From: Homoserinimonas aerilata
Lineage (GTDB): Bacteria; Actinomycetota; Actinomycetes; Actinomycetales; Microbacteriaceae
Direction of reading: 5' to 3'
Assembly: GCF_006716125.1 (NCBI RefSeq)
Contig: NZ_VFOM01000003.1
Span: 1 to 64,000 of the forward strand
Length of the DNA: 64,000 bases
Shown here: positions 7,216 to 24,650 of the stretch, one piece after another
Numbering within the stretch: the first letter of the stretch is position 1
Layout: every line of letters starts with the position of its first letter
Notes under the pieces: generated by a model
What the model saw: only the letters and a program-made list of their open reading frames with translations
Databases searched by the model: none
Told to the model about the DNA's origin: nothing
Program-made: the position numbers and the translations under genes

Positions 7216-8034
7216 ATGTCGGAACGCAGGTATCTCAGTGATGGCAGCAGCATCCCGGCGATCGGCTTCGGAACCAATCAGATGGACACGGATGCGATCG
7301 CGTCAGCGATCGACGTGGGCTTCCGCATGCTCGACACGGCGTGGGTGTACGGCAATGAGAGCGCCGTGGGTGACGCCATCCGTGGTTCCGGCGTGCCGCG
7401 TGACGAGTTCACCGTCATCACGAAGCTGCCGGGCCGGGCGCACGGAGTGGACGAGGCGCGCGCCTCGCTGACCGAGTCGCTCGCGAGCCTGGGCCTCGAC
7501 CACGTCGACCTCTATCTCATCCACTGGCCGATGCCACGTGTCGACCGCTACGTCGACGCGTGGAAGGGGCTCATCGCCCTGCGGGAGGAGGGGCTCGTGC
7601 GTTCCATCGGGGTGTCCAACTTCAACCCCGATCATGTCCTGCGGCTCATCGAGGAGACGGGGGTGGCGCCGGTCGTCGACCAGGTCGAACTGCACCCGCA
7701 CTTCATCCAGGCCGAGCAGCGGGCATTCGCCGCAGGCCGCGGAATCCCGACGATGAGCTGGAGCCCGCTCGGGCGCCGCGCCGACCTGATGGCGGATGCC
7801 ACCATCGCAACGATCGCGGAGCGTCACGGGGTCTCACCGGCCCAGGTGGTCGTGCGGTGGCACATCGAGCTCGGGTCGGTGCCCATCCCGCGCTCGACGA
7901 GTGCTGCGCGTCAGGCGGAGAACTTCGACGTCTTCGGCTTCAGTCTCGACGCCGACGAGGTCGCGGCGATCAGCCGCCTCGACTCGGGTGTGAGGCTCTG
8001 GGGCGGCGACCCCGAGACGAAAGAGGAGTTCTAG
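7216..8034 (+). CDS. Aldo/keto reductase (AKR5-like, 2,5-diketo-D-gluconate reductase type)
   Basis: About 272 residues, NAD(P)H-dependent (beta/alpha)8 barrel. The AKR tetrad is visible: Asp and Tyr in MLDTAWVYGNE, Lys in VITKLPG, His in YLIHWP. Coenzyme-binding motifs (GVSNFN, VVRWHIE, PIPRST) follow. AGGAGG at 7206-7211 favours the second of two adjacent ATGs (7216). Its stop abuts the convergent phosphorylase gene with no gap. It may reduce a sugar ketone or aldehyde; the specificity is not determined. Confidence 0.9.
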   Translation: MSERRYLSDGSSIPAIGFGTNQMDTDAIASAIDVGFRMLDTAWVYGNESAVGDAIRGSGVPRDEFTVITKLPGRAHGVDEARASLTESLASLGLDHVDLYLIHWPMPRVDRYVDAWKGLIALREEGLVRSIGVSNFNPDHVLRLIEETGVAPVVDQVELHPHFIQAEQRAFAAGRGIPTMSWSPLGRRADLMADATIATIAERHGVSPAQVVVRWHIELGSVPIPRSTSAARQAENFDVFGFSLDADEVAAISRLDSGVRLWGGDPETKEEF

Positions 8035-8823
8035 CTAACCCTCGACGCTGAGCATCGCCGCTGCCTCGCAGGCGATCGTGAGCATCCGCTGCTGCACCGG
8101 GGCGTAGTCCTCGAGCCACTCGTCTGTCGCGCGGTTGCCGTGTGTCGCCAGGACCGCCCCGTAGCGGCGCCCGAGGGCTTTCGCGACCGCGAACACCGTC
8201 TCGCACTCCATGTCCATGGCGTCGGCCCCCCGCCGAAGCACATCCGCCATGCGTTCCTCCGCCGCCTTCTCGAGGCCGGGCAGGCTCCGACCTTCGCCCA
8301 CGTAGTACGAGTCGCAGGACATGACCGTGATGGGGGTGAGGGCCTCGCCGTGCGTTGCGGCGGCGGCATCCAGCGCATCGAGGACCTCGTCGTGGGCAGG
8401 GATGGGTTCGTCGCCCTTCGCGTAGAAGCGGGCGGTGCCGCCGTCGCGCAGGGCTGAGGCGACCGAGGTGATCGATCCGGGCACGATCCCTGCGGGGATC
8501 GCACCCATGCCTCCGACCCTGATGAAGGTTGTGACACCGAGTCGGCTGAGCTCGACGATCGCGATCTCGGTGGATGGTCCGCCGATGCCGGTGGAGCAGA
8601 TCGCGATCTCCTGGCCGGCGAAGCGGCCTACGCCGAGGCGGTATTCGCGCTTCTCGCCGATGAGTTCGAAGTCCTCGAGAACGGCGGATGCGAGTGAGAC
8701 GCGGGCGGGATCTCCCGGGAGGAGGCACACGCGGGGCAGCGTTCGGCCATCTGTCGGGATGTGGGGCGGTCTGCCGTCGAGCCAGGGGTCACTGGCGCTG
8801 CGGAGGGGTGTTTCTTCCGTCAT
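8035..8823 (-). CDS. Nucleoside phosphorylase (uridine phosphorylase-like)
   Basis: A 262-residue member of the PNP/UDP family 1 of nucleoside phosphorylases. Motifs include the phosphate-binding LLPGDPARV near the N-terminus, CSTGIGGPSTEI and RVGGMGAI in the middle, and the ribose-binding DAMDMECETVFAVA late in the protein. It would convert a pyrimidine nucleoside and phosphate to a base and ribose-1-phosphate. It is divergent from the PyrD/PyrK/PyrC-type operon, with paired palindromes between them, so it is probably co-regulated with pyrimidine catabolism. Uridine rather than purine specificity is inferred from overall resemblance. Confidence 0.88.
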   Translation of the reverse strand: MTEETPLRSASDPWLDGRPPHIPTDGRTLPRVCLLPGDPARVSLASAVLEDFELIGEKREYRLGVGRFAGQEIAICSTGIGGPSTEIAIVELSRLGVTTFIRVGGMGAIPAGIVPGSITSVASALRDGGTARFYAKGDEPIPAHDEVLDALDAAAATHGEALTPITVMSCDSYYVGEGRSLPGLEKAAEERMADVLRRGADAMDMECETVFAVAKALGRRYGAVLATHGNRATDEWLEDYAPVQQRMLTIACEAAAMLSVEG

Positions 8824-8850
8824 TGGATTCCCGTCTCTTCCGGCTCAGGC

Positions 8851-8865
8851 TTCCGTTAATCGGAA
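8851..8865. promoter_or_regulatory. Palindrome TTCCG-N5-CGGAA, candidate IclR operator (site 1)
   Basis: A perfect 5-bp inverted repeat with spacer TTAAT lies 28 bp upstream of the phosphorylase start. The same half-sites with the same 5-nt spacer recur at 9048-9066 in front of the divergent operon. IclR-family regulators often bind palindromes of this design, and an IclR gene sits inside the operon (13489). Confidence 0.55.
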
Positions 8866-8995
8866 ACGGTGTGTGAGTTGCCACCCTAATACGTATGGCT
8901 GTGATCATCGTGCGATCGCACTGTCGCTCCGTTGCCCTGTCTGGAACTTCCCTGAAACCTCGCTGAAACATGGGACATTCGAGCAGAATCTCGAT

Positions 8996-9025
8996 TTGAC
9001 AAAGCCGATTGCTGTGATCGATGAT
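8996..9025 (+). promoter_or_regulatory. Candidate promoter of the pyrimidine-catabolism operon
   Basis: TTGACA at 8996-9001 is followed after 18 nt by GATGAT at 9020-9025, a weak -10 match. It is the best sigma-70-like pair in the 318-bp divergent gap, and it lies just upstream of operator-like site 2. The gap otherwise holds no coding potential that I can support. Confidence 0.4.
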
Positions 9026-9047
9026 TCCCTAATCAAGTGGAAAGAGC

Positions 9048-9066
9048 GTTTCCGTAAGGCGGAAAC
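9048..9066. promoter_or_regulatory. Palindrome GTTTCCG-N5-CGGAAAC, candidate IclR operator (site 2)
   Basis: A perfect 7-bp inverted repeat with spacer TAAGG, 75 bp upstream of the ABC ATPase start and downstream of the putative promoter. It shares the TTCCG/CGGAA half-sites with site 1 at 8851, which fits a dimeric repressor bound at both ends of the divergent control region. Confidence 0.6.
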
Positions 9067-9141
9067 TACTGTATCGCTTGTTCCGATCTCAGTGCGGTGT
9101 CGGCGGTCCCGGCAGCGACTCGAAGCGCCCGAAGGACGACG

Positions 9142-9891
9142 ATGACCCAATTCCTCTCCGTGTCAGACATCACGAAGGTGTACAAGGCGGCGAATCGGCA
9201 GAGCGTCACCGCCCTCGATGATGTGTCCCTCGACATCGACGACGGGCAGATCATCGCGCTCATCGGTCCGAGCGGATGCGGCAAGTCAACGCTGCTGCGC
9301 ATGATCGCCGGACTCGACGACGACTACCAGGGCGAGATCACCTGGGCGACGCCCCCGAAGCCGGGGCGCGACATCGGCTTCGTCTTCCAGGAGCACGCCC
9401 TCCTGCCGTGGCGCACGGTTCAGCGCAACGTCGCACTCGGCCTTGAGGGCAAGGGTGCGGACAAGGCATCCGTCACGGCCCGGGTGGCCGAGCTCCTTGC
9501 GATGGTCGGTCTGCAGGACTTCGCCAACTCCTATCCGTCGGAGCTCTCCGGTGGCATGAGGCAGAGGGTCGCGATCGTGCGCGCGCTCGCCTACAACCCC
9601 CAGATCCTGCTCATGGACGAGCCGTTCGGCGCACTCGACGCGATCACCCGGGACCGTCTGCAGGATGACCTGCTGCGTATCTGGGAGCAGACGAAGAAGA
9701 CGATCGTGCTCGTCACGCACAGTGTTGAGGAAGCCGCCTACCTGGCCGACCGCGTCGTCGTCATGAGCGCGCGACCGGGTCGCATCCGTGCCATCCACGA
9801 CGTGCCTCTTCCGCGTGAGCGTGACCAGTCCACGCGCGAGCTCCCCGAGTTCGCGCACTTCTCCAACATGCTCCGCGGGCAGCTCGCATGA
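9142..9891 (+). CDS. ABC transporter ATP-binding protein (NitT/TauT/SsuB type)
   Basis: A 249-residue nucleotide-binding subunit. Walker A is GPSGCGKST, the Q-loop is in FVFQEHALLPW, the signature is LSGGMRQRV, Walker B is LLMDEPFGALD, and the switch His is in LVTHSVEEA. The ATG at 9142 follows a GAAGGA site; an upstream in-frame start at 9097 would add an unlikely leader. First gene of the operon, overlapping the permease by 4 nt. It energises uptake together with two permeases and a binding protein encoded next to it. Confidence 0.95.
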   Translation: MTQFLSVSDITKVYKAANRQSVTALDDVSLDIDDGQIIALIGPSGCGKSTLLRMIAGLDDDYQGEITWATPPKPGRDIGFVFQEHALLPWRTVQRNVALGLEGKGADKASVTARVAELLAMVGLQDFANSYPSELSGGMRQRVAIVRALAYNPQILLMDEPFGALDAITRDRLQDDLLRIWEQTKKTIVLVTHSVEEAAYLADRVVVMSARPGRIRAIHDVPLPRERDQSTRELPEFAHFSNMLRGQLA

Positions 9892-10694
9892 CGCAGGCCA
9901 TCATGACCGCGACTCTTGCCCCACGCCGGGGGATGCCTCCCGTGCTGAAGCATCTGCTGGTGACGGTCGCCTATCTCGTCGTGATAGTCGGCATCTGGCA
10001 GGTCTATGTGACGGCCGCGGATGTCCCCATCTACCTTCTTCCGGCACCGGATGCCGTCTGGGAGTCGATGGTCGGCATGGCTCAGGACGGCCTGCTGTGG
10101 GGCAACATGCTCTACACCGTGCGGAACATCGTGATCGGCTTCGTCGGTGGCGTGCTGATCGGTACGGTCCTCGGGTACATCCTGTGGGCGTCCCGCTGGG
10201 CCCGCGAGATCGCCGCCCCGTACATCGTGGTCCTGCAGGCGGCCCCGAAGATCGCGGTGGCCCCGCTCCTGGTGCTGTGGTTCGGTCTTGGATTCGAATC
10301 CCAGATGGCCCTCATCCTCATGCTCTCCTTCTTCCCGATGATGGTGTCGATGAGGCTCGGCCTCGAATCGATCTCCTCGGACGTCGAGACGCTCGGGCGT
10401 CTCCTCAACATGGGCCGCTGGAGGTACTTCCGCACCGTCCAGCTCCCGGGTTCCATGCCCGAGCTGATCTCGGGGGCCAAGATCGCGATCATCGACGCCA
10501 TGACCGGGGCGTTCCTGGCCGAGTACATCTCCGCCCAGGTCGGGCTCGGCTACCTCATGGTTCTCGGCAACAGCTCCTACAACACCCCCATGCTCATCGC
10601 GGCAGTCCTGCTCACCGTCGTCGCCGGCCTTGCCGGGTTCGGGCTCATCGGCCTCGCCGAGAAGCGCCTGCTCCGATGGCGCACCAACCGTTGA
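9888..10694 (+). CDS. ABC transporter permease (NitT/TauT type), first
   Basis: A 268-residue inner-membrane permease with about six hydrophobic segments and the BPD-transporter-1 core (APKIAVAPLLVLWFG, then the docking loop ETLGRLLNMGRWRYF). It is coupled to the ATPase by an ATGA overlap. A second, paralogous permease occurs at 11752, so the channel is likely a heterodimer. The family handles small anions and heteroaromatics such as taurine, nitrate and thiamine pyrimidine precursors. Confidence 0.92.
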   Translation: MTQAIMTATLAPRRGMPPVLKHLLVTVAYLVVIVGIWQVYVTAADVPIYLLPAPDAVWESMVGMAQDGLLWGNMLYTVRNIVIGFVGGVLIGTVLGYILWASRWAREIAAPYIVVLQAAPKIAVAPLLVLWFGLGFESQMALILMLSFFPMMVSMRLGLESISSDVETLGRLLNMGRWRYFRTVQLPGSMPELISGAKIAIIDAMTGAFLAEYISAQVGLGYLMVLGNSSYNTPMLIAAVLLTVVAGLAGFGLIGLAEKRLLRWRTNR

Positions 10695-10730
10695 CCCCCT
10701 GCAGCACACCAGAATAAGAAAGGCACCACA

Positions 10731-11762
10731 ATGAAGTTCCGTACCATTCGCGGGCCGCTTGCGATCATCGCCAGCGTCGCCACAGTCGCCGGTCTCGCAG
10801 CCTGCAGCCCCGCCGACACCGCCAGCCAGGGCGACACCTCGGGTGAGCGCACAAGCGTCACCATCCAGATCGACGGCGCCGCTGTCCCGTACTACGCGCC
10901 CCTCTATGAGGCCGCTGAGCAGGGCTACTTCGAGGAGGCAGGGCTCGACGTCGAGTTCACCTACGCCGAGGCCTCGAGCGTGCTGCAGAACGTCGCAGCC
11001 GGCAACGTGCAGTTCGGGTTCCCGAACGGCGACTCCGTCATCACGGCGAAGGCCAACGGTGTCGACGTCGAGGTCGTGCACACCACCTACCAGCAGGGCA
11101 TCGGCGCGGTTCTCTTCAACAAGGAGACGAACCCCATCACGAAGCCCGAGGACCTGAAGGGCAAGACCGTCGCGGTCACCGACCTCGGCAGCCCGAACTA
11201 CATCCAGCTGCAGGCGATGCTCGCCGACGCCGGCATGTCCGTCTCCGACCTCAATGTCGTCACGGTCGGCTCCGGCTCGATCGTCGCCGCGCTGCAGAAC
11301 GGAGAGGTCGACGCGATCGTCTTCTCGCGCCTCCGCTACTTCGCGCTCGAGAGCGCAGGATTCCCGGTCGGTCAGATGCTGAGCGACAAGTACCTTCCTT
11401 CGTTCGGAAACGTGCTCGTCACGAGCCCCTCGCTTCGCGAGAGCGACCCTGAGGTCGTCTCCGGCTTCGTCTCGGCCCTCGACAAGGGCATCCAGTACGT
11501 GATCGACAACACGGAGGCGGCTGTCACCGAGGTCATCGCCAAGTACTCGGACAGCTTCGCCGGCCAGGAGGAGTCGATCACCCAGGTGATCACCGACGTG
11601 TTCGTCGCCGACCTGTGGCAGTCGGAGTTCACGAAGGAGCACGGCCTCGGCTACGGCGACCTCGAGAAGTGGCAGGCCGCCATCGACGCTCAGGTCTCCT
11701 TCGGTCTGATCAACGAGTCCTATGACGCCTCTTCACTGGTGGTGGAGCCCGGTGACCTCTGA
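10731..11762 (+). CDS. ABC transporter substrate-binding lipoprotein (NMT1/THI5-like)
   Basis: A 343-residue lipoprotein with lipobox LAAC and Cys at residue 25. The mature domain resembles the NMT1/THI5-like SBP family: AAEQGYFEEAGLDVEF, then a QNVAAGNVQFGF segment, then DLKGKTVAVTDLGSPNY. Members bind sulfonates, nitrate or pyrimidine-type ligands such as hydroxymethylpyrimidine. With PyrD/PyrK/PyrC-type enzymes downstream, orotate or another pyrimidine is a reasonable ligand (inference). AAAGG precedes the ATG. Confidence 0.9.
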   Translation: MKFRTIRGPLAIIASVATVAGLAACSPADTASQGDTSGERTSVTIQIDGAAVPYYAPLYEAAEQGYFEEAGLDVEFTYAEASSVLQNVAAGNVQFGFPNGDSVITAKANGVDVEVVHTTYQQGIGAVLFNKETNPITKPEDLKGKTVAVTDLGSPNYIQLQAMLADAGMSVSDLNVVTVGSGSIVAALQNGEVDAIVFSRLRYFALESAGFPVGQMLSDKYLPSFGNVLVTSPSLRESDPEVVSGFVSALDKGIQYVIDNTEAAVTEVIAKYSDSFAGQEESITQVITDVFVADLWQSEFTKEHGLGYGDLEKWQAAIDAQVSFGLINESYDASSLVVEPGDL

Positions 11763-12525
11763 CGTTCTGACCGCTGAGCGGGTGAGGCCTCTCCTCGTGG
11801 GAGGGGCCTCGCTCGCCCTCGGCGTCGCCGCATGGTGGGCGCTCGCCGAGTTCTCGCAGATTCCTGCGTACATCCTGCCGTCCCCCGGCGAGGTGATCGA
11901 TCGTGCCGTGGGCCTCGCCTCGACAGGATCGCTCCAGCTTCACACTGCGCAGACGCTTGCGGAGGTGGGGCAGGGGGCCGTCATCGGCGTCGTCATCGGC
12001 GTTCTGCTGGCCATGGTGTTCTACCACGTGCCCTTCATCAACCGCCTCCTCATGCCGATCATCGTGGTCGCGCAGGTGACTCCGAAGATCTCCATCGCGC
12101 CGCTCATCGTGCTGTGGATCGGCCTCGGCATCGCCTCGAAGATCACGCTGGTGGCACTCGTCGTGTTCTACCCGATCCTCATCAACATGCTCGCGAGACT
12201 GCAGTCGATGCCGTCGACGATGCGGGATCTCGCACGCATCACGGGCATGGGCCCCGTGCGTCGGGCGTTCCGCATCGAGTTCCCGTACACGTTCCCGGCG
12301 ATCGCTGCGGGCCTCAAGATCGGCCTCCTCGCCGGCGTCACGGCCGCCGTGATCGGTGAGTTCATCGGCGCGACCGCCGGCCTCGGCTACATCGAGAAGC
12401 AGGGCCAAGACAACGACGACATCCGCCTCGTGATGGTCGCCCTGTTCCTGCTGTCGATCATCGGCTACCTGCTGTGGGCCCTTGTCGGCGCCATCGAGAA
12501 GCGTGTGGTCAGGCGGTTCAATTGA
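11752..12525 (+). CDS. ABC transporter permease (NitT/TauT type), second
   Basis: About 257 residues from a GTG at 11752 that overlaps the end of the binding-protein gene by 11 nt. An in-frame ATG at 11722 would lie deeper inside that gene. It has six hydrophobic segments and the same core as the first permease (TPKISIAPLIVLWIG and a docking loop around DLARITGMGPVRRAF). A pair of distinct permeases in one importer is the pattern of some pyrimidine-precursor and riboflavin-type transporters. Confidence 0.9.
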   Translation: MTSDVLTAERVRPLLVGGASLALGVAAWWALAEFSQIPAYILPSPGEVIDRAVGLASTGSLQLHTAQTLAEVGQGAVIGVVIGVLLAMVFYHVPFINRLLMPIIVVAQVTPKISIAPLIVLWIGLGIASKITLVALVVFYPILINMLARLQSMPSTMRDLARITGMGPVRRAFRIEFPYTFPAIAAGLKIGLLAGVTAAVIGEFIGATAGLGYIEKQGQDNDDIRLVMVALFLLSIIGYLLWALVGAIEKRVVRRFN

Positions 12526-12530
12526 CGATC

Positions 12531-13499
12531 ATGGCGGTGCCCGCCGCGGAGAGTTCGCGTCGGCAGTTCTTCGACGCCCGTCCCGTGTCGGGCGTCGACC
12601 TCGGCGTCACCATAGGCGGTCTGCGGCTGCGCAATCCGGTCATGCCGGCATCCGGATGCTTCGGCCCCGAGCTCGGGCGGATGATCCCGTCGGACGAACT
12701 CGGCGCCGCCGTGACGAAGACGGTGTTCCACGATGCGCGCGGCGGCAACCCCGTGCATCGCCTCACCGAGGTCGAGGCCGGAATGGTCAACAGTGTCGGA
12801 ATCCCCAGCCGGGGGCCGGCGGGCTACCTGGAGGAGCTGCATCCGCTCTACAGCGCCCTTGACACGCCCACGATCATCAGCGTGGGTGGCCACCGGGTGC
12901 ACGAGTATGCGCCCATCGTCGAAGAGCTGTCGGCCGCCGGTGCCGCGTACGAGCTGAACGTCTCCTGCCCCAACCTCGATCGTGACGGCGCCGATATCGG
13001 TGCCGACCCGCAGGCGGTTCTGGATGTCGTGCGCCAGGTGCGCGAGGTCACAGACAAGCCGCTCATCGTCAAGCTGCCGGCCATGGTCGCCTCGATCGCG
13101 GAATGCGCGATCGCGGCCGAGCAGGGCGGAGCGAGTGCTGTCGCGGTGTCGAACTCGATCCCCTCCCTGCCCATCGACCGCGCTTCGCGCAGGCCAGCGC
13201 TCGGAAACATCGTCGGCGGGCTGTCTGGGCCGGCCATCCGCCCCATCGTGACCCGCCTCGTGTGGCTGTCGGCGCGCGCCGTCGACATCCCCGTCATCGC
13301 CTGCGGAGGCATCGAGACGGCTGATGACGCGCTCGACTATTTCTCGGTCGGCGCCAGCGCAATTCAGGTAGGAACCGCCAACTTCGCCCGACCCTATGCC
13401 ATGGTGATGATTGCTCGGGAGCTTCAGCGTCGTTGTGCCGCCGCAGGGGTGTCGAGTATCGAGGAACTGCTGACGATGGGGGAACGCAATGGTGGTTGA
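12531..13499 (+). CDS. pyrD: Dihydroorotate dehydrogenase, class 1B catalytic subunit type
   Basis: A 322-residue FMN-binding TIM barrel interconverting dihydroorotate and orotate. Class 1 features are NPVMPASGCFG, GMVNSVGIPSRGP, the NVSCPN motif with Cys146 as catalytic base (class 2 enzymes use Ser), GLSGPAIRP and CGGIETADDALDYF. A PyrK-type partner lies at 16619, which fits an NAD-linked PyrDK complex that can run toward dihydroorotate. A TTG at 12522 overlapping the permease stop has a better-spaced AGGCGG and may be the true start. No other pyrimidine biosynthesis gene except pyrC accompanies it. Confidence 0.9.
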   Translation: MAVPAAESSRRQFFDARPVSGVDLGVTIGGLRLRNPVMPASGCFGPELGRMIPSDELGAAVTKTVFHDARGGNPVHRLTEVEAGMVNSVGIPSRGPAGYLEELHPLYSALDTPTIISVGGHRVHEYAPIVEELSAAGAAYELNVSCPNLDRDGADIGADPQAVLDVVRQVREVTDKPLIVKLPAMVASIAECAIAAEQGGASAVAVSNSIPSLPIDRASRRPALGNIVGGLSGPAIRPIVTRLVWLSARAVDIPVIACGGIETADDALDYFSVGASAIQVGTANFARPYAMVMIARELQRRCAAAGVSSIEELLTMGERNGG

Positions 13500-14370
13500 A
13501 CGCGGCGAAGAGAAGCCCATGCATGTCGTCGTTCGTGCGCTCTCGGTTCTCACGGCGTTGAGCAATCGACGCGAAGGAGTCACGCTGCAGCAGCTGCACC
13601 GTGACCTGGACATTCCACTCGGCAGCATCCATCGCCTGCTGCGCAGCCTCGAGACCGAGGACTTCGTCATGCGGTCGAGCACGACGAAGCGATACACGCT
13701 CGGCTCCGCAGCACTCGCGCTCGGCTACCACGAGCAGTACGACGCCTTCCTCGTCACACCTCCTCAGCCCGTCGTCGAACTCGGCAGGGAGAGCGGCGAG
13801 ACCGCCTTCCTCACCCGCATGATCGACAGCCGGGTGATCTGCGTCTCGCTCGTCGAATCGACGCATCCGCTTCGACTCTTCGTGCACGTCGGCCAGGAGA
13901 TGCCGCTGCACGCGGCGGCCTCGGCCCGCATCGTGCTCGCCCACCGGGAGCCCGCCCTCGTCGAGGCGCTGCTCACCGGCCAGCACCGCGAGGCGTACAC
14001 GAGCGGAACCATGCGAGAGGTCAATCAACTGATCGACCACCTGGCGCTCGTGCGGAATCGCGGCTTCGACGTCTGCAGCAGCGAGCTCGACGACGCGGTG
14101 TGGGCTGTGGCCGCGCCCGTCTACGACGCCTTCGGGCGCGTCGAATGCGGAATCGCCCTCGCCGCCGCCGCCGGACGGGTCGACAGTGCCGAACGCCGGG
14201 CGGAGTTCACGAGCATGGTCCTTCGGGCCGCCGCCGACCTGTCACGCAGCCAGGGCTTCACCGGAGAACTCCCCGACAACCACGACATCGCGGAACTCAC
14301 GGCCCTCTACGAGACGGCCGGCGACGAGCATCCGTTTCTCTCCAAGACGACCCTGAGGCGCCCCCAGTGA
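13489..14370 (+). CDS. IclR-family transcriptional regulator
   Basis: A 293-residue regulator with an N-terminal winged HTH (TLQQLHRDLDIPLGSIHRLLRSLE), then an IclR effector domain with typical ends (GRESGETAFLTRM, and WAVAAPVYDAFGRVECGIALA late). It overlaps pyrD by 11 nt, so it is made as part of the operon. It is the obvious candidate to bind the TTCCG-N5-CGGAA palindromes at 8851 and 9048. A pyrimidine effector is inference. Confidence 0.92.
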   Translation: MVVERGEEKPMHVVVRALSVLTALSNRREGVTLQQLHRDLDIPLGSIHRLLRSLETEDFVMRSSTTKRYTLGSAALALGYHEQYDAFLVTPPQPVVELGRESGETAFLTRMIDSRVICVSLVESTHPLRLFVHVGQEMPLHAAASARIVLAHREPALVEALLTGQHREAYTSGTMREVNQLIDHLALVRNRGFDVCSSELDDAVWAVAAPVYDAFGRVECGIALAAAAGRVDSAERRAEFTSMVLRAAADLSRSQGFTGELPDNHDIAELTALYETAGDEHPFLSKTTLRRPQ

Positions 14371-14870
14371 CCATCGCAACCCCTACCCTCCACGAGCTCG
14401 TTCCGCGCTCGGACTCGACGCGCCTCAGTGAACTCGCCGACGACCTGGCCGCGCTGTGGCCCACAAGCCCTCAGGATGTGGACGGCTGGATGTCGCGCCC
14501 CTCGATCCTGAGGAGGGTCGCAGGCGAACTCGCCGCCCGACTCGCCGCCGACACCGATCGTGTGGTCGCGCTGGGGCCGGGTGCCCTCGTACTCGGTGGT
14601 GCGGTCTCCCTCTCGACGGGCCTGCCCTTCTGTGCGGTCGACGACGAGGGAACGGTGTTCGGCGATCACCACGCGGGCGAGACCGCCGGAGTCATCTCCG
14701 TCGATGGCAACGCGGAGGAACCCGGCTGGCTTTCAACCCTTGATGTGAGCCGACGGTTGAGCGTCGTACACGGCGGCGGGAGCAGAATTGGGGGAGAGGT
14801 GCTGATCTCGCGGCTTCCGCTGCGGCGCGACACGGCGGCATCCGAACCGGAAGGCAACGACCATGACTGA
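14367..14870 (+). CDS. Degenerate phosphoribosyltransferase-like protein, first of a pair
   Basis: A 167-residue protein starting at a GTG that overlaps the IclR stop (GTGA). The segment VAGELAARLAADTDRVVALG, then GALVLGGAVSLSTGLPF, resembles the core of orotate phosphoribosyltransferases (a helix, then the strand-loop that contacts the base and pyrophosphate). The region after the hood has no acidic-acidic-TTGG PRPP loop, so transferase activity is unlikely. It is adjacent to a second PRTase-like gene and inside a PyrD/PyrK/PyrC cluster. A binding, sensing or accessory role is possible. The fold assignment is by eye and moderate. Confidence 0.55.
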   Translation: MTIATPTLHELVPRSDSTRLSELADDLAALWPTSPQDVDGWMSRPSILRRVAGELAARLAADTDRVVALGPGALVLGGAVSLSTGLPFCAVDDEGTVFGDHHAGETAGVISVDGNAEEPGWLSTLDVSRRLSVVHGGGSRIGGEVLISRLPLRRDTAASEPEGNDHD

Positions 14871-15300
14871 ACCCACGACGCTGCAGGCCCAGCTCGACTC
14901 GCTCACGATCAGCGAGGACGGAGCCAGCCGATTCGACCTCGTCCTCGACCCGGCCGCGGCAACTGCGGTGGGCGAGACGCTCGCAGAGCGCGCCCGGCAG
15001 TATGAGCCGACCGTGGTCCTGAGCTGGGCCAGCGAAGACGACATCGTCCTCGCGCACATCGTGGCCAGCGCGCTCGGCGTTCCCCGCGCGGTCGTCGAGT
15101 TGGACCTCGGGCTCATCACGATCTCGCGGCCCCTGCCGTCGGGCAGCCGTGCCGTTCTGGTCGCGCCCCAGTTCTCGGCCGAGCGCCCCATCGGGTCGAT
15201 CGCGACGATGCTCGAGACGCGCGACCACAGACTCGTGCTCGCGGCTGCGCTCGCAAGCGGTCACGACTCCGACGCCACCCCCTTCATAACCCTCAGCTAG
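14863..15300 (+). CDS. Degenerate phosphoribosyltransferase-like protein, second of a pair
   Basis: A 145-residue protein overlapping its neighbour by 8 nt. The pattern LAERARQYEPTVVLSWAS, then IVASALGVPRAVVELD, then LPSGSRAVLVAPQFS matches the PRTase layout up to the strand that normally leads into the PRPP loop, where the canonical DD-x-TTG-G residues are replaced by APQFSAERP. The active-site loop is therefore missing. With the preceding gene it may form a heteromeric pseudo-PRTase. No known family name can be given with confidence. Confidence 0.55.
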   Translation: MTEPTTLQAQLDSLTISEDGASRFDLVLDPAAATAVGETLAERARQYEPTVVLSWASEDDIVLAHIVASALGVPRAVVELDLGLITISRPLPSGSRAVLVAPQFSAERPIGSIATMLETRDHRLVLAAALASGHDSDATPFITLS

Positions 15301-15350
15301 TTCGGCGCCGCCCGGGAAGTTCTCCCGTGTACCGCCATTGGAGAATCCCC

Positions 15351-16622
15351 ATGCAGCATCCGCTCGAGAACGCAACGGCGTCGCTCGTGACGACCTCGCG
15401 TCTGTCCCACTGGATCGACACCTTCGCCTCGCTCAGCGAGGCCGGCCGGGGCGTGACCCGCCTCGCATACAGCCCGCTCGAACGCCGCTCCCATGCGGTG
15501 TTCGGCGAGTACATGGCGTCGCTGGGCCTGACCGTCGAGACGGATGCCGCAGGCAACACCATCGCGGAGCTCGCCTCCACAACGGGCGAGCGGGAGGCCG
15601 CCATCGGCACCGGCTCCCACCTCGACAGCGTGCCCGAGGGGGGCCGCTTCGATGGCATCGCCGGCGTGGTCGCCGGCATGGAGGTTGCTCGCATCGCGGT
15701 GGAGCAGCAGCTCCCGCGGCGGCGGCCCTGGCGTTTCGTCGCCTTCGCGAGCGAAGAGGGGGCTCGTTTCGGCCAGGCCTGCAACGGCAGTCGCATGATC
15801 GCCGGACTCACGACATCCGCTGACCTCGACGGGTTCCACGACAAGGACGGCGTGAGCATGGCCGCCGCGATGAAGAGCGTCGGTCTTGCGCCGGACGCCG
15901 TCGAGACGGCGCGGTGGCGAAGTGAGGACTGGTTCGCCTTCGTCGAGGTGCACATCGAACAGGGCGGCGTGCTCGAGTCGAAGAACCTCAGCGTCGGAGT
16001 CGTCGATGTGATCTCCGGCAGCACGAGGCTTGAGGTGACCGTGCTCGGCCAGGCGTCGCACACGGGCGGCACCCCCATGCATCTGCGGCGGGACGCGCTC
16101 GTGACGGCCGCCGAATGCGTGCTCGCGTGCCAGACGATCGCCACGGACCCCGAGCACCATGGAACCCGCGTCACGGTCGGCCGTCTCGATGTGCACCCCG
16201 GATCGATCACCACGATCCCGGGTCGGGTGGTCTTCACCGTCGATGTTCGCGATGTCGACAGCGACCGGCAGCGCCTCACCGCCGAAGACCTTGTGGCCCG
16301 CTTCGAGCAGATCGCCCGATCCCGGAGAACACAGCTCACGGTTGCCCTCATCGGTGACACGTCGCCCGTCGTGCTGCCGTCGTGGGTTGCCGAGCACATC
16401 GCCGCCGGCGCCGCAGAGGAGGGCCTCAGCTATCGGATGCTGCCGAGCGGGGCCAGCCACGACAGCCAGCAGATCAACAGGGTGGTGCCGACCGGCATGG
16501 TCTTCGTGCCCAGCCGCGACGGCCTCAGCCACGTACCGGAGGAGTTCACGGAGGCGAGCGAGCTGGCCGACGGTACTGCCGTCCTCCTGCAGGCTATGAA
16601 GAGATTGGATGCCGCATCATGA
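15351..16622 (+). CDS. M20-family N-carbamoyl-amino-acid hydrolase (ureidosuccinase/beta-ureidopropionase type)
   Basis: A 423-residue dinuclear zinc amidohydrolase. Metal and catalytic motifs are GSHLDSVPEGGRFDG (His90, Asp92, Asp101) and the FASEEGARF segment with Glu135-Glu136; EVHIEQG and GASHDSQ follow with later His ligands. GGAGA six nt upstream fixes the ATG at 15351. The family removes the carbamoyl group from N-carbamoyl amino acids, allantoate or N-carbamoyl-beta-alanine, releasing CO2 and ammonia. Next to dihydroorotase-type PyrC, the likely substrate is N-carbamoyl-L-aspartate, giving aspartate (inference). Confidence 0.88.
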   Translation: MQHPLENATASLVTTSRLSHWIDTFASLSEAGRGVTRLAYSPLERRSHAVFGEYMASLGLTVETDAAGNTIAELASTTGEREAAIGTGSHLDSVPEGGRFDGIAGVVAGMEVARIAVEQQLPRRRPWRFVAFASEEGARFGQACNGSRMIAGLTTSADLDGFHDKDGVSMAAAMKSVGLAPDAVETARWRSEDWFAFVEVHIEQGGVLESKNLSVGVVDVISGSTRLEVTVLGQASHTGGTPMHLRRDALVTAAECVLACQTIATDPEHHGTRVTVGRLDVHPGSITTIPGRVVFTVDVRDVDSDRQRLTAEDLVARFEQIARSRRTQLTVALIGDTSPVVLPSWVAEHIAAGAAEEGLSYRMLPSGASHDSQQINRVVPTGMVFVPSRDGLSHVPEEFTEASELADGTAVLLQAMKRLDAAS

Positions 16623-17500
16623 GCTCGACAGGAACAGCCGGCCTCGAGGGACTCGTCGTCCCGCGACCGCCCGAAACCTCGCCTCGGCCCCAGCCGATCT
16701 GGGATGAGTCGATCGTGGTGGCGCACGACATCGTGGGTACCAGATACCACCGGCTGACGTTGCGCAGCCCGGAGATCGCGGCCACGGCATCCGCGGGGCA
16801 GTTCGTCATGGTCTCGGTTCCCGAGTCTGCCGGCGACCGCATCCTGCTGCCGCGCCCGATGGCGATCCACCGCAGGCGTGTCGACCGCGGGATGATCGAA
16901 CTGATCTTCAACGTAGTCGGTCGCGGCACCTCCGCGCTCAGCACCGTCGCGACGGGTGATCGGCTGCTGATCACCGGTCCGCTCGGTCGCGGCTTCGAGA
17001 TTCCCGAGACAGCCGGGAGCCTCCTGCTCATCGGCCGCGGGATCGGCGTCTGCGCGGTCATGGGAGCGATCGAAGACGCCGTGGCCGAGGGGCGTCCGGC
17101 CACGGCCGTTCTCAGCGCGAACACACGCTCATCGATCATCGGGCTCGAGGACTGCGCAGAACTTGGCGCCCACGCGATCGGCGTCGCCGACGAGGACGGC
17201 ACGAGCGCCGTTGCTCCTCTCGGTGCCCGCCTTCGAGCAGAGTTCGCCGCGGCGCCGCCCAGCGCGATCATGGTCTGCGGATCGAGCCGCCTCACGCGGC
17301 TCGCGGCGGATCTCGCCGCCGAATGGGGCGTCGAAGCACAGGTGTCGCTCGAAGCCCACATGGCCTGCGGTATCGGATACTGCCACGGCTGCGCGGCGCC
17401 GGTCGCCTCGGCGGACGACACGGAGGGGCCGCTCGTGTGCGTCGACGGCCCGGTGTTCGACGTCGTCACGAATCGAGACGCAGGCGCGAGAGCGGCGTGA
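16619..17500 (+). CDS. pyrK: Dihydroorotate dehydrogenase electron-transfer subunit (PyrK type)
   Basis: A 293-residue ferredoxin-reductase-like protein, translationally coupled by ATGA to the hydrolase. It has an N-terminal FAD-binding barrel (LPRPMAIHRR), an NAD-binding domain (LLLIGRGIGVCAVMGAIED), and a C-terminal [2Fe-2S] motif with Cys250, Cys255, Cys258 and Cys274 (spacing CX4CX2CX15C), as in PyrK. It links PyrD to NAD(H). The usual proline/glycine-rich NAD-loop GGIG is altered to GRGIG. Separation from pyrD by five genes is unusual. Confidence 0.9.
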   Translation: MSSTGTAGLEGLVVPRPPETSPRPQPIWDESIVVAHDIVGTRYHRLTLRSPEIAATASAGQFVMVSVPESAGDRILLPRPMAIHRRRVDRGMIELIFNVVGRGTSALSTVATGDRLLITGPLGRGFEIPETAGSLLLIGRGIGVCAVMGAIEDAVAEGRPATAVLSANTRSSIIGLEDCAELGAHAIGVADEDGTSAVAPLGARLRAEFAAAPPSAIMVCGSSRLTRLAADLAAEWGVEAQVSLEAHMACGIGYCHGCAAPVASADDTEGPLVCVDGPVFDVVTNRDAGARAA

Positions 17501-17502
17501 CG

Positions 17503-18777
17503 ATGATCATCCGCGACGTTGCCATAGCGGGTGACGACCGGGGCGTGGACATCGAGATCCGCAACGGCCGAATCGCGGCGATCGTTCCGAGCGAGCTACG
17601 GCCGGATGCGAGCATCCGCCGGGTCGTGCTGCCGGGACTCGTCGACCTGCATGCACACCTGCGCGAGCCGGGCGGGGAACGCTCGGAGACGATCGAGACG
17701 GGAACGCGTGCTGCCGCCGCGGGAGGATTCACCGACGTCTTCGCGATGGCCAATCTGACCCCCGTCACGGATACCGCAGCACGCGTCAGGGATCTCAGGG
17801 CGCGTTCGCTGGGTGCCAGCGTGCGGGTTCACCCTGTTGGTGCCGCCAGCGTCGGCCTGCTCGGAGAGGAGCTGGTCGACCATGCGGCGCTGGCCGCCGA
17901 AGGGGTGACGCTCTTCTCGGATGACGGCAAGTGCCTGAGCGAAGCCGAAATGGTGCGTGAGGTGCTCGCCCGCATGGCCGAACTCGGCACCATTTTCGCC
18001 CAGCATGCGCAGGATCCGCAGATCGTGGGCGCCGGCGTCATCAATGAGCGGGTGGCACACGCTGCGGGGGCGGCGGGCTGGCCCGTGTCGGGTGAGGAGA
18101 CGATCGTGGCGCGCGACATCGCCCTGGCTGAGGCGACCGGCGGGCGCCTCCACGTGTGCCACGTGTCGACGAGGGGCACGGTCGAGCTCGTGCGGCGGGC
18201 GAAGGCGCGGGGCGTTCCTGTGAGCGCGGAGGTGACCCCGCACCACCTGGTGCTCACCGACGACGATGCGGCGCTCGCCGGGCCGGCGCTCAAGGTGAAC
18301 CCGCCGCTGAGGTCCCCTGAGGACGTCGCGGCCCTGCGCGAGGCGCTGCGCGACGGCACGATCGATGCCATCGGAACCGATCACGCACCCCATCCGGCCG
18401 AGACGAAGCGGATGCCATGGCCGGATGCCGCCTTCGGGCTGACGGCCCTGGAGACGGCGCTTCCCATCGTCTCCGAGGTCCTGACGAACGGCGGACGGAC
18501 CGACTGGGATGCCGTGGCCCGCGTCATGTCGTTCACGCCGGCGAGGATAGGGGGAATCGCCGATCTCGCCGGCCGCCCCGTCGCCGTGGGAGAACCCGCG
18601 ACCTTCTGCATGGTGCAGCCCGGTCACCGCTGGACGGTGCATGCCGAGCGAATGTTCAGTCGCTCCCACAACACGCCGTTCGAGGGCCGCAGCCTGACCG
18701 CCCGCGTCCTCGCCACCGTGATCGACGGTCGCGTGGTGCATGCGGGCGACGACGACGTGTTCGCCGCCTCCCGCTGA
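17503..18777 (+). CDS. pyrC: Dihydroorotase (PyrC type)
   Basis: A 424-residue amidohydrolase. The metal and substrate motif DLHAHLREPG has His50, His52 and Arg54; this Arg contacts the carboxylate of dihydroorotate, arguing against a plain dihydropyrimidinase. Further motifs are FSDDGKCLSE, HVCHVSTRGTVEL, EVTPHHLVLTD, ALKVNPPLRSPED and IGTDHAPH, all standard for type I dihydroorotase. A GTG at 17497 overlapping the pyrK stop is an alternative start. As the last gene of the operon it would either close or, in a catabolic context, open the dihydroorotate ring. Confidence 0.9.
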   Translation: MIIRDVAIAGDDRGVDIEIRNGRIAAIVPSELRPDASIRRVVLPGLVDLHAHLREPGGERSETIETGTRAAAAGGFTDVFAMANLTPVTDTAARVRDLRARSLGASVRVHPVGAASVGLLGEELVDHAALAAEGVTLFSDDGKCLSEAEMVREVLARMAELGTIFAQHAQDPQIVGAGVINERVAHAAGAAGWPVSGEETIVARDIALAEATGGRLHVCHVSTRGTVELVRRAKARGVPVSAEVTPHHLVLTDDDAALAGPALKVNPPLRSPEDVAALREALRDGTIDAIGTDHAPHPAETKRMPWPDAAFGLTALETALPIVSEVLTNGGRTDWDAVARVMSFTPARIGGIADLAGRPVAVGEPATFCMVQPGHRWTVHAERMFSRSHNTPFEGRSLTARVLATVIDGRVVHAGDDDVFAASR

Positions 18778-18783
18778 CGGCGA

Positions 18784-18858
18784 TGCGAGCCGTTTTCGGC
18801 GATTCGCGCCCGCGCTCGCGGGCTCGAATCGCCGAAAACGCCTCGGAACGACGGATGC
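18784..18858. repeat. Dispersed palindromic repeat A, copy 2
   Basis: A 75-bp element 6 bp after the pyrC stop, 69/75 identical to copy 1 at 7056. Here the palindrome is perfect: 16-bp arms at 18791-18806 and 18825-18840, with a nested CCCGCG-N2-CGCGGG palindrome in the 18-nt loop. It can fold into a very stable hairpin and may end or protect the operon transcript. Confidence 0.88.
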
Positions 18859-18867
18859 TCCCGGTTT

Positions 18868-18895
18868 TTGACCACTCCGCGCGGGCTGGTATAGT
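18868..18895 (+). promoter_or_regulatory. Promoter of the tRNA-Arg gene
   Basis: TTGACC at 18868-18873 and TATAGT at 18890-18895 with a 16-nt spacer, 29 nt before the mature tRNA start. Confidence 0.7.
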
Positions 18896-18924
18896 CATTC
18901 AGTTGGGTTTTTCGCCCGACAGTT

Positions 18925-19000
18925 GCGCCCGTAGCTCAGCGGATAGAGCAATTGACTACGGATCAATAGGCCGGGGGTTCAAATCCCTCCGGGCGCACCA
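18925..19000 (+). tRNA. tRNA-Arg (anticodon ACG)
   Basis: A 76-nt cloverleaf with CCA encoded at 18998-19000. The 7-bp acceptor stem pairs GCGCCCG with CGGGCGC. The D-arm has GCTC/GAGC. The anticodon stem ATTGA/TCAAT encloses the loop CTACGGA (anticodon ACG, reading CGU and, after A34 deamination, CGC/CGA). The T-arm is GGGGG-TTCAAAT-CCCTC. The tRNA adenosine deaminase TadA at 48209 is the enzyme expected to modify this A34. Confidence 0.97.
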
Positions 19001-22120: not shown

Positions 22121-23248
22121 TCAGTCGCAGAGCTTGCGCAGACGGGGGATGGGGATGCGGTAGTTGACGGATACGGCAGCCGCGGTGCCGTCGTCGTGCC
22201 GCCATCGCAGCAGCGCGGGCCCGTCGAGGGCACCGTCCACCAGTTCGGGTTCTCCCACGAGGGGTGTCCGGCCGGCGACGCGAATGTTGAGGTCGAAGAG
22301 TTCGGTCCAGAAGTAGGGCTGAGCCTGCAGCTCGGGGGCCGCATCGCCGTGCAGCAGGGCGCCTGCGGCGACTCTCGCCTGCTCGATGGCGCTGTGCCAG
22401 ATGGGGCTGCGCACATTGGCGCCGGCTAGAGGGAACGCGGCGACGTCTCCGGCCGCGACGATCTCGGGGCGGAGCCTGCCGCGGCTGTCGACGGCGAGGG
22501 GGCCGCCGTCGGCCAGCCCGCTCCCTTCGAGCCATTCGGTGTTGGGGATGTCGCCGACGGCGCTGAGGAGAATCTCGCCGTCGATGATGGTTCCGTCAGC
22601 GAGTTCCACCCGTGACCTGCCATCCTGGTCGACCACTCGGGCACCCGGGGTGATGATGAGGGTGAGGCCGCGTGCCGTGGCGGCGGCGGTGATGTGGCTG
22701 CTCAGGTAGGGGCCGAGCTGTCGCTCCAGGGGCGGCTCGTTGGTGACGACGGTCACGCGGCATCCGGCCTCGAGGGCGCCGGAGGCGGCCTCCATGCCGA
22801 GGGGGCCGCCGCCGACGATGACCACGTCTGGTCGTGACGACAGCTTCTCGCGGAGGGCGAGTGCGTCGTCGAGGGTGCGGAGCACCAGTTCGTCAGACCC
22901 GGTTCCGAGTCGTCTGGCCCGCGAACCGCTGGCGATCACCAGCCCGTCGTATTCGAGTTCCGTTCCATCGTCGAGTGTCAGTACGCGGCGGTCTGCGTCG
23001 AGCCCGACCGCGGTGCGGCCGAGCAACTCTGTTGCCCCGTGGTCGGGCGGTGGGAGTTCGTGCGAGGTGAGGTCGGTGTCGCTGCGCAGAAGCGCCTTCG
23101 ACAGTGCAGGGCGGCTGTATGCAGGCCGCGTCTCGGCGCCGACCATGGTCAGCTCGCCGTCGAAGCCGCCTGCGCGCAGGGAGTCCGCCGCGGTGAGCCC
23201 GGCGATGCCGTTGCCCACCACGACGATCCTCTTCAGTGTCGACACCAT
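22121..23248 (-). CDS. Ferredoxin reductase, FAD/NAD(P)-dependent (P450 redox partner)
   Basis: A 375-residue pyridine-nucleotide-disulfide-type oxidoreductase with an N-terminal FAD motif (VVGNGIAGLTAADSL) and a second Rossmann motif for NAD(P)H (IVGGGPLGMEAASGALEAG). A C-terminal reductase domain resembles rhodocoxin/putidaredoxin reductases. Its ATG directly follows the ferredoxin stop (TGAATG). It moves electrons from NAD(P)H to the ferredoxin for the P450 at 23472. Confidence 0.92.
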   Translation of the reverse strand: MVSTLKRIVVVGNGIAGLTAADSLRAGGFDGELTMVGAETRPAYSRPALSKALLRSDTDLTSHELPPPDHGATELLGRTAVGLDADRRVLTLDDGTELEYDGLVIASGSRARRLGTGSDELVLRTLDDALALREKLSSRPDVVIVGGGPLGMEAASGALEAGCRVTVVTNEPPLERQLGPYLSSHITAAATARGLTLIITPGARVVDQDGRSRVELADGTIIDGEILLSAVGDIPNTEWLEGSGLADGGPLAVDSRGRLRPEIVAAGDVAAFPLAGANVRSPIWHSAIEQARVAAGALLHGDAAPELQAQPYFWTELFDLNIRVAGRTPLVGEPELVDGALDGPALLRWRHDDGTAAAVSVNYRIPIPRLRKLCD

Positions 23249-23446
23249 TCAGGCGCGCTCGGCCAGGCGCAGCGCGGCGACCGGGCAGACGCGCACCGCG
23301 GCGCGCGCTCGATCGAGTGCCGCGCCGTCCACCTCGGCGATGTCGATGACGAGTTCGCCGTCATCGTCCAGGTGCATGAGGTCTGGCGCTGCTTCTTCGC
23401 ACAGCCCGTGGCCCTCGCAGCGGGGGCGGTCGAGTTCGATTCTCAT
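23249..23446 (-). CDS. [3Fe-4S] ferredoxin (P450-associated)
   Basis: A 65-residue ferredoxin with only three cluster cysteines, Cys10, Cys16 and Cys54 (the last followed by Pro). His13 occupies the position of the missing fourth ligand (CEGHGLC), typical of actinobacterial 3Fe-4S ferredoxins paired with P450s. GGGAGAG precedes the start. It lies between the P450 and the reductase and carries electrons between them in the cytoplasm. Confidence 0.93.
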   Translation of the reverse strand: MRIELDRPRCEGHGLCEEAAPDLMHLDDDGELVIDIAEVDGAALDRARAAVRVCPVAALRLAERA

Positions 23447-23471
23447 GGTTGTCTCTCCCGGTGTTGCTGGG

Positions 23472-24650
23472 TCATGCCGGAACGACGTCGAGGACGTCGA
23501 GCTTCTCGATGCTTCGGGTGATGTTGCTCGGCACGCGCAGCTCCTCGCCGAGGCGGAACGACTGCACGTGCTTCGCGAGGGCTGCGACGACCGCGTGGCC
23601 CTCCATGCGGGCGAGGCCCTGGCCGGCGCAGCCGTGGGGGCCGTATCCGAAGGTCAGGTGGTCGACGGGGTTGCGGGCCACCAGGAACTCATCCGGGTTC
23701 TCGTAGTGGCGCTCGTCGTGGTTGCCCGCGCCGAAGAGGATGGCGATCTGGGCGCCCGCGGGCACCAGGGCACCATCGATCTCGACCTCGCGTGTGGTCT
23801 TGCGCCCCCACGCGTGCACCGGCGGCCAGAAGCGCAGCACTTCGGCGAATGCGGCGGAGACGAGCGACGGGTCCTGTCGCACGAGCTCGAACTGCTCGGG
23901 GTGGCGGCCGAAGAGCGCGACGACGTTGCCGATCGCGGCGATCGTCGTGTCGACGCCGGCGCCGAGGTACTGGTGGATGATGTGACCGGCGGTTCCCTCG
24001 GGGACCTCGCCGCGTGCTTCCGCGTCGAAGATCCCTCGCCCGATGGAGCCTTCGGCGAGGTCTTCCGCCGTGACGGTGCTGCACCACGCGTAGAGTTCGC
24101 CGGCGATGGGGAAGGCCTCCTGGGTGCGCTGGTTCATCGGGCCGATCACCTGCATTCCGGCTTGGCCCCAGCGCAGCATGTTGGCCTTCACCTCGCCGGT
24201 GAAGCCGATGAGGTTGGCGACGATCTCGAGCGGGAACTCCCGGGCGAGGCTGTCGATCACATCGAAGCTGCCGGTCTGTGCGAGTTCGGCGACCAGCGCA
24301 TCCGCCTTCTCGGTGATCTGCGCGCCGAGGCCGCGCAGTGCGCGAGGGGTGAGGTTCGCGGAGAGGGTGGCGCGCAGCTGCGTGTGCACGGGCGGGTCGG
24401 AGGCCAGTGATGTGCCCTGGAGCGCATCGTTGACGCCCGGGTTGAACCCGATCGCCTTGACGGAGGAGAAGGTCTCGGGGTCTGAGAGCGCGTCGCGGAT
24501 GGTGTCGTAGCGGGTGAGTGCGTAGACGTCGTTCGCGGGAAGGTGCACGACTGCGCCGAGATCGCGCAGCGCCGTGTAGGTGGGGAAGGGATCGATCAGA
24601 ACGTCGTCGGCAAAGAGGTCGATGTCTGAAGTTGCTGGTCCGTGTGCCAT
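23472..24650 (-). CDS. Cytochrome P450 monooxygenase
   Basis: A 392-residue soluble bacterial P450. The I-helix oxygen-activation motif reads GAGVDTT, the K-helix ExxR is EVLR, and the heme-binding loop FGYGPHGCAGQGLAR carries the axial cysteine near residue 341. GAGGAG lies 8 nt before the ATG. First gene of a three-gene P450, ferredoxin, reductase operon, divergent from the phosphotriesterase-like genes. It likely starts oxidation of the aromatic or lactone substrate handled by the island; no specific subfamily can be assigned by eye. Confidence 0.95.
   Translation of the reverse strand: MAHGPATSDIDLFADDVLIDPFPTYTALRDLGAVVHLPANDVYALTRYDTIRDALSDPETFSSVKAIGFNPGVNDALQGTSLASDPPVHTQLRATLSANLTPRALRGLGAQITEKADALVAELAQTGSFDVIDSLAREFPLEIVANLIGFTGEVKANMLRWGQAGMQVIGPMNQRTQEAFPIAGELYAWCSTVTAEDLAEGSIGRGIFDAEARGEVPEGTAGHIIHQYLGAGVDTTIAAIGNVVALFGRHPEQFELVRQDPSLVSAAFAEVLRFWPPVHAWGRKTTREVEIDGALVPAGAQIAILFGAGNHDERHYENPDEFLVARNPVDHLTFGYGPHGCAGQGLARMEGHAVVAALAKHVQSFRLGEELRVPSNITRSIEKLDVLDVVPA

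Follow-up and report, generated by a model that had tools for sequence, protein, structure and literature searches.

The 64,000-nucleotide stretch of the Homoserinimonas aerilata genome analysed here (positions 1 to 64,000 of contig NZ_VFOM01000003.1, assembly GCF_006716125.1; hereafter the window) carries at 8035..18777 a group of twelve genes, one divergent gene on the minus strand and eleven on the plus strand, which we consider likely to be a catabolic system for orotate, and probably also for orotidine. In the proposed mechanism, an ATP-binding cassette (ABC) importer would bring the compound into the cell, the divergently encoded phosphorylase (UPP) would free orotate from orotidine, PyrD and PyrK would reduce orotate to L-dihydroorotate at the expense of NADH, PyrC, working in the hydrolytic direction, would open the ring to give N-carbamoyl-L-aspartate, and an M20-family amidohydrolase would strip the carbamoyl group, yielding L-aspartate, CO2 and ammonia and pulling the reversible steps forward. 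An IclR-family protein would control both transcription units through two palindromes, and two further proteins, X1 and X2, would most likely be sensors binding orotate or a related ligand, or partners of the M20 enzyme. A first-pass annotation of this DNA had already read the region as a dedicated operon for orotate import and degradation. The core of that reading is supported, with a biosynthetic gene set found elsewhere in the genome and strong comparative evidence, but the annotation, right in the genes it named, had missed the divergent phosphorylase, X1 and X2 (which resemble orotate phosphoribosyltransferase, OPRT, X2 more weakly) and the palindromes.

Catalytic enzymes of the operon

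The eleven plus-strand genes are tightly packed (they overlap or lie no more than about 50 bp apart), in the order ABC ATPase, permease, NMT1-class binding protein, permease, pyrD (class 1B), iclR, X1, X2, M20, pyrK and pyrC. The importer, PyrD, PyrK, dihydroorotase, M20 and IclR genes are thus all present in the order first described and, as was also stated, no pyrB, carAB or pyrF is seen among the operon genes. For comparison, 84,980 species genomes were scanned with the M20 alignment alone (two peptide patterns), which yielded 56 loci; the record titles of 55 name actinobacteria. Residues were counted over rows long enough to score (L096 is left out of the M20 counts, and short rows out of the others), and the roles given to the scored positions of PyrD, PyrK, PyrC and M20 are those that we presume.

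PyrD (12531..13499) passes both NCBIfam cut-offs for the catalytic subunit of class 1B dihydroorotate dehydrogenase (DHODH; PRK07259, 296.9 versus 269; TIGR01037, 272 versus 270) and matches PDB entries 5ue9 and 1ep1. Six residues (K, N, N, C, N, N), which we take to be the active-site Cys and the orotate-binding Lys and Asn, are present in the window and invariant in 32/32 relatives, the seventh position being Ser or Thr. PyrK (16619..17500), the predicted FAD/[2Fe-2S] electron-transfer subunit, is above the cut-off for the Pfam domain DHODB_Fe-S_bind (44.5 versus 23.9), and its four-Cys [2Fe-2S] site, the mark of a PyrK partner, is kept in all 35 relatives. PyrC (17503..18777) exceeds the cut-off of the subfamily-level model TIGR00857 (371.3 versus 279), matches PDB entry 3mpg and has the HxHxR motif, the substrate-carboxylate Asn and the metal ligands of a class I dihydroorotase; ten active-site residues are kept without exception in the relatives with 45% identity or more (30/30).

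The M20 protein (15351..16622), which had been described as a carbamoyl-amino-acid hydrolase, does fall in that family: it exceeds the cut-off of TIGR01879 (hydantoinase/carbamoylase family amidase, 374.2 versus 204), matches PDB entry 3n5f, and its two-metal site residues and substrate Arg are invariant in 55/55 relatives. We propose, from its family and neighbours, that it is an N-carbamoyl-L-aspartate amidohydrolase (ureidosuccinase). Its second-best NCBIfam match, at 379 bits and below the cut-off of 520, is the N-carbamyl-L-glutamate hydrolase ErtE, and we count this match in favour of the proposal because the ErtE substrate is another dicarboxylic carbamoyl amino acid. Thr287, which aligns with an Asn of the characterised L-carbamoylase 3n5f, is conserved in 54 of the 55 rows (only the distant L098 differs), including every one of the PyrD- and PyrK-bearing loci that have PyrC (21) or a hydantoinase-like gene (10), which suggests one common carbamoyl substrate across the M20 clade. 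Additionally, one relative encodes a natural fusion of M20 carbamoylase and dihydroorotase (L011:6106-8673, minus strand, a single frame of 855 residues), which fits consecutive pathway steps; the same cluster contains X2, ABC genes, a UbiX-type flavoprotein and IclR, and PyrD was not found in the 18 kb of that locus.

Separate biosynthetic genes

The direction of flux that we infer is from orotate to aspartate. The source genome (2.84 Mb in 6 contigs, 99.96% complete) encodes elsewhere a class 2 pyrD (TIGR01036, 376 versus 200 bits), a pyrB (TIGR00670, 297 versus 237) with a second pyrC directly behind it (687 versus 538), and a pyrE with the motifs RKQPKDHG and EDTSTTGG (TIGR00336, 126 versus 107). 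The first-pass annotation had proposed to look for a class 2 pyrD and another pyrC, and both lie away from the window, as does the pyrE; the operon is therefore not the biosynthetic set of this organism, and that reading is rejected for the source genome. Two PyrD-family genes were likewise found in each of the eight relatives' genomes checked (L049, L063, L073, L074, L081, L084, L092 and L093).

A second or conditional set for pyrimidine biosynthesis or salvage would account for PyrD, PyrK and PyrC belonging to biosynthetic families and for the presence of OPRT-related genes, and in two draft genomes (L092, L093) the operon OPRT alone exceeds the pyrE cut-off and may also serve biosynthesis. 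We nevertheless regard this explanation as highly improbable: the operon lacks pyrB, carAB and pyrF while pyrB, pyrC, pyrD and pyrE stand elsewhere, a carbamoyl hydrolase would destroy a biosynthetic intermediate, and X1 of the window has no catalytic motifs.

X1 and X2, two proteins resembling OPRT

The statement that no pyrE is present in the operon is formally right, but X1 (14367..14870, with a GTG start) derives from the PyrE/OPRT fold, and X2 (14863..15300) less surely so. In the window, X1 has neither the RKxxKxYG motif nor the acidic phosphoribosyl pyrophosphate (PRPP) loop and gives no match to TIGR00336, and is thus a homologue and not an OPRT; neither motif is kept in the X1 of L019 and L020 either. 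In three relatives (L081, L092 and L093), the same slot holds a full OPRT (TIGR00336, 131.3, 124.3 and 126.1 versus 106.8 bits) with the RKxSKxYG motif and an EDVIST PRPP loop. Across the X1 alignment, judged by eye, an acidic PRPP-type loop is seen in 11 of 36 rows and the RKxxK motif in 3; a stricter pattern search finds the loop in nine loci. These 36 rows leave out the X1 of L059, L064, L067, L072 and L094 and two weak extra matches in L092/L093. The first X1 and X2 profiles cross-matched, and the higher-scoring profile decided the assignment of each gene; the X1/X2 state of L043, L076, L078 and L082 was taken from the identical loci L020, L021, L022 and L012, respectively.

Profile comparisons with hhalign join the degenerate X1 to the motif-bearing X1 (E 1.2e-24) and the latter to PyrE (E 7.7e-41), both being pairwise E-values. 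X2, a second protein resembling phosphoribosyltransferases, without the PRPP motif, aligns over most of its length with motif-bearing X1 (probability 90) and with PyrE (probability 72); six control comparisons with M20 or UPP all gave 1.4 or less. The PyrE set used here kept L102 (a 30-residue fragment) and L103 (a weak match). No Pfam or NCBIfam family was matched by X2, and neither X1 nor X2 matched a Pfam DNA-binding domain. The AlphaFold (AF2) models of both are confident (pLDDT 94.2 for X2 and 87.3 for X1). In the comparison with a near congener (one genome pair), pN/pS is 0.49 and 0.50 for X1 and X2, 0.25 for M20 and 0.36 for IclR; X1 and X2 are constrained, less so than M20 or IclR. The phosphorylase gene, whose reading frame did not hold in this comparison, is left out of it. 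That X1 and X2 are spurious reading frames was considered and rejected, both being conserved in relatives and constrained.

The intact OPRT in the X1 slot points to orotate as the substrate, as does the second pyrE of the L081 genome (123.6 bits, above the cut-off), which makes the operon OPRT an extra copy there; the reservation is that the OPRT of L092 and L093 may have a biosynthetic role as well. We put forward, tentatively and at somewhat less than even chances, that actinomycetotal orotate operons recruited an OPRT which in many lineages is now the catalytically dead X1/X2, acting as orotate sensors or as a partner on which the carbamoyl-aspartate hydrolase depends, with the phosphorylase extending the diet to orotidine. 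If true, a nucleotide-building enzyme that uses orotate became part of the machinery deciding to burn it. Within a single slot of the operon, the relatives provide OPRT sequences that grade naturally from intact to decayed. A phylum-wide search with the X2 profile matched 20/396 genomes (source genome included); 13 of the 19 other loci (L024-L042), which are in uncultured-looking phylum members, have a PyrD-like gene nearby, and these X2-profile loci may be ordinary divergent PyrE genes.

Distribution and variants of the operon

All twelve genes stand in the same arrangement in a congener (L019) and in the Microbacteriaceae metagenome-assembled genome FW021_bin.57 (L020 = L043). PyrD and PyrK are both present at 33 of the 56 M20 loci, and all 33 have IclR and at least one of X1 and X2 (X1 in 22, X2 in 32). 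PyrC accompanies them at 21 and a hydantoinase-like gene takes its place at 10, with neither at two (L044, L061). The ten hydantoinase-type loci (L057, L075, L079 and L084-L090, from Pseudonocardia, Saccharopolyspora, Prauserella and Sciscionella) have a PyrD-MFS-X2-M20-PyrK cluster (MFS, major facilitator superfamily transporter) in which that gene, mostly with an MmgE/PrpD gene, replaces PyrC; X1 was not found in any of the ten. In Cryobacterium tepidiphilum (L061) the operon is split, PyrD-X2-PyrK standing apart from an MFS-X1-M20 block, and the locus has no PyrC match.

The transporter is exchangeable. Among the 33 loci, 12 have the NMT1/ABC type and 19 an MFS protein (31 recognised), with more distantly related ABC genes in the remaining two (L092, L093). 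A tree of PyrD from 32 loci and the window (33 rows) shows at least four changes of transporter type, though 15 of its 30 inner branches are unresolved. With several of the 33 sampled actinobacterial loci lying in named type strains, the system can be tested in ordinary cultures; culturable relatives that carry the ABC type include Microbacterium gubbeenense and a Streptomyces.

Close relatives rarely carry the system: with the source genome counted in each case, PyrD (at E 1e-45) turns up in 5 of 199 genomes of the family, and X2, searched as a single sequence, in 4 of 396 genomes of the order. As to plasmid spread, no X2 (E 1e-5) or M20 (E 1e-80) match was found among 72,556 plasmid records. 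As to a possible tRNA-linked island, a tRNA-Arg(acg) gene lies beside the operon in the window (18925-19000), and in L019 the distance between the two is about 3 kb. In two congeners, the surroundings of this tRNA yielded no operon (one 31% ABC match aside) and none of the genes that flank it in the window.

Importer and divergent phosphorylase

The importer genes encode a NitT/TauT-type ATPase (9142..9891; Pfam ABC_tran, 122.9 bits), two permeases (9888..10694 and 11722..12525; BPD_transp_1, 101.3 and 89 bits) and an NMT1/THI5-class binding protein, judged by eye to be a lipoprotein (10731..11762; NMT1, 145.4 bits). The distant PDB matches of the binding protein include the formylaminopyrimidine-binding 3ix1 and the taurine-binding 6ssy, and by family the system is a candidate orotate importer.

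UPP, the divergent gene (8035..8823, minus strand), encodes a uridine-phosphorylase-like nucleoside phosphorylase (Pfam PNP_UDP_1, 79.5 versus 25.1 bits). Its best PDB matches are uridine phosphorylases; against the NCBIfam uridine phosphorylase model TIGR01718 it scores 137.6 bits and does not reach the cut-off of 280, and is thus a homologue only. A YY[VL]G[EQ]GR stretch, present in 11/11 rows, aligns with FYPGQER of known enzymes. UPP may be an orotidine phosphorylase, orotidine being the substrate that fits because none of the operon enzymes was recognised as acting on uracil and uridine would be a dead end. Another phosphorylase of the superfamily is encoded in the source genome.

UPP is found at 9 of the 12 ABC-type and at none of the 19 MFS-type loci with PyrD and PyrK; the three ABC-type loci without it are L044, at a contig end, and the Micromonospora loci L052 and L054. 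On the tree, the linkage comes down to two independent supported pairs (sign test, median p 0.5, not significant), and it was therefore rejected as independent evidence. A variant of the proposed pathway, in which the ABC type imports orotidine and free orotate arises only inside the cell, as an intermediate produced by the phosphorylase, would explain this distribution, the palindrome-bearing gap that UPP shares with the operon, the likeness of UPP (with its conserved stretch) to uridine phosphorylases and the dead end that uridine would be. We hold it possible but doubtful, given the few independent events behind the link, the Micromonospora loci that have the ABC genes and no UPP, a score at half of the uridine phosphorylase cut-off, and no residue evidence for the 6-carboxylate.

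Intergenic region and flanks

UPP and the ABC genes are separated by 318 bp with two exact TTCCG-N5-CGGAA palindromes 199 bp apart, TTCCGTTAATCGGAA on the UPP side (8851..8865) and TTCCGTAAGGCGGAA on the operon side (9050..9064), both candidate IclR operators. They are the only exact copies in the window, where 0.08 are expected, and none of 100 shuffles had two. The same gap in L019 and in L020/L043 holds two exact copies 196-197 bp apart, and that of L074 one exact and one near copy 196 bp apart; the remaining loci have weaker sites or none. The IclR-family regulator (13489..14370; Pfam HTH_IclR and IclR_C, both above cut-off) would bind the two palindromes and so control both transcription units. 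The operon-side palindrome lies directly downstream of a sigma-70-like promoter sequence (TTGACA-18-GATGAT, 8996..9025, plus strand), which matches at 10/12 positions and is weak evidence of a promoter, two such sites occurring in 8000-19000 where 0.8 are expected.

Directly 3' of pyrC, before the tRNA-Arg(acg) gene, an inverted repeat with 16-base arms (18791-18840), seen by eye, is a possible terminator; a terminator scan of the window did not report it. A few kb downstream (22121-24650, minus strand), Pfam identifies genes of the pyridine-nucleotide-disulphide oxidoreductase family and for a cytochrome P450.

Points against orotate as the substrate

Several results weigh against the reading of these genes as an orotate operon. 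At the level of single proteins, PyrK is below the cut-off of every NCBIfam PyrK-type model (best 117.5 versus 220), PyrC is below the dihydroorotase equivalog PRK09357.1-1 (478.5 versus 538), which the other genomic PyrC passes, M20 is above the cut-off of a subfamily model named allantoate amidohydrolase (423 versus 399), and the binding protein has matches to taurine and sulfonate binders too, its ligand class being broad. The palindrome is no commoner in the whole genome than a reversed control pattern (4 sites versus 3). Among the loci, L081, with its intact OPRT, has no PyrD, the nearest PyrD-family gene being about 27 kb away, and 23 of the 56 M20 loci are without PyrD and PyrK, some of them cut by contig ends; X1 or X2 is present at 19 of these 23, PyrC at 11 and a hydantoinase-like gene at 7. 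Two of them (L045, L047) have M20-PyrC-X1/X2 beside genes for UbiD, a UbiX-type flavoprotein and OCD/mu-crystallin, hinting at a different starting compound. Such loci make the M20-X1/X2 core look like a module fed by several routes, and the M20-PyrC module probably serves other entry routes too.

These variants, with an allantoinase/hydantoinase-like enzyme in the place of PyrC or UbiD/UbiX-type/OCD genes without PyrD-PyrK around the same core, together with the allantoate amidohydrolase match, are what one would expect if the operon degraded another cyclic ureide (a 5-substituted hydantoin or a dihydropyrimidine, giving a different N-carbamoyl amino acid) with shifted PyrD and PyrC specificity. 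We judge this unlikely, as the six DHODH residues are kept in 32/32 PyrD and all ten PyrC residues in 30/30, three relatives have an intact OPRT in the X1 slot, and the models for ErtD, allantoinase and PreA are all below their cut-offs (157 versus 650, 223 versus 358 and 109 versus 335, respectively).

Comparison with known systems

Orotate degradation was described biochemically decades ago. In the classical reductive route, orotate is converted to dihydroorotate, N-carbamoyl-aspartate and finally aspartate, CO2 and NH3; in Clostridium oroticum, this involves a class 1B DHODH, a dihydroorotase and a ureidosuccinase. The chemistry proposed here and the DHODH class are the same, but the present genes lie together in an actinobacterial operon that also encodes a dedicated importer, an IclR regulator, OPRT-related proteins and a carbamoyl hydrolase of the M20 family, and the comparison is with the route and not with clostridial genes. 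To our knowledge, no gene has been assigned to ureidosuccinase (EC 3.5.1.7), and the family described here gives candidate genes for every step of orotate degradation, including N-carbamoyl-L-aspartate hydrolysis. The class 1B status of the C. oroticum enzyme is given in a passage of PMC10395836.

The first annotation had called the operon not a described system, in agreement with which no description of a bacterial orotate-degradation operon, and none of orotate degradation at the level of genes, appears among the matches listed in openly licensed PMC papers. The relevant part of Barba et al. 2013 (PMC4016543) concerns further families of DHODH-like proteins, encoded near M20 and hydantoinase genes, and does not describe the present one.

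The order of a cyclic amidohydrolase followed by a carbamoyl hydrolase is shared with the hydantoinase/carbamoylase pathway, where the latter is of the M20 type, and with the reductive pyrimidine pathway (dihydropyrimidinase, beta-ureidopropionase). Here, in contrast, both family and residues mark PyrC as a dihydroorotase, and the reductase is a class 1B DHODH with PyrK (PreA, 109 versus 335). The ErtD/ErtE pair (NCBIfam names) of the ergothioneine utilisation pathway likewise combines an amidohydrolase with an M20 hydrolase for a dicarboxylic carbamoyl amino acid, but both operon proteins are below the ErtD/ErtE cut-offs. Finally, PyrR and PurR are regulators with a phosphoribosyltransferase fold tied to nucleotide metabolism, and a regulatory role for this fold is proposed here as well; X1 differs in its origin from OPRT, and X1 and X2 in having no Pfam DNA-binding domain and in lying in a catabolic operon. 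The unusual part of the operon is the OPRT-related pair.

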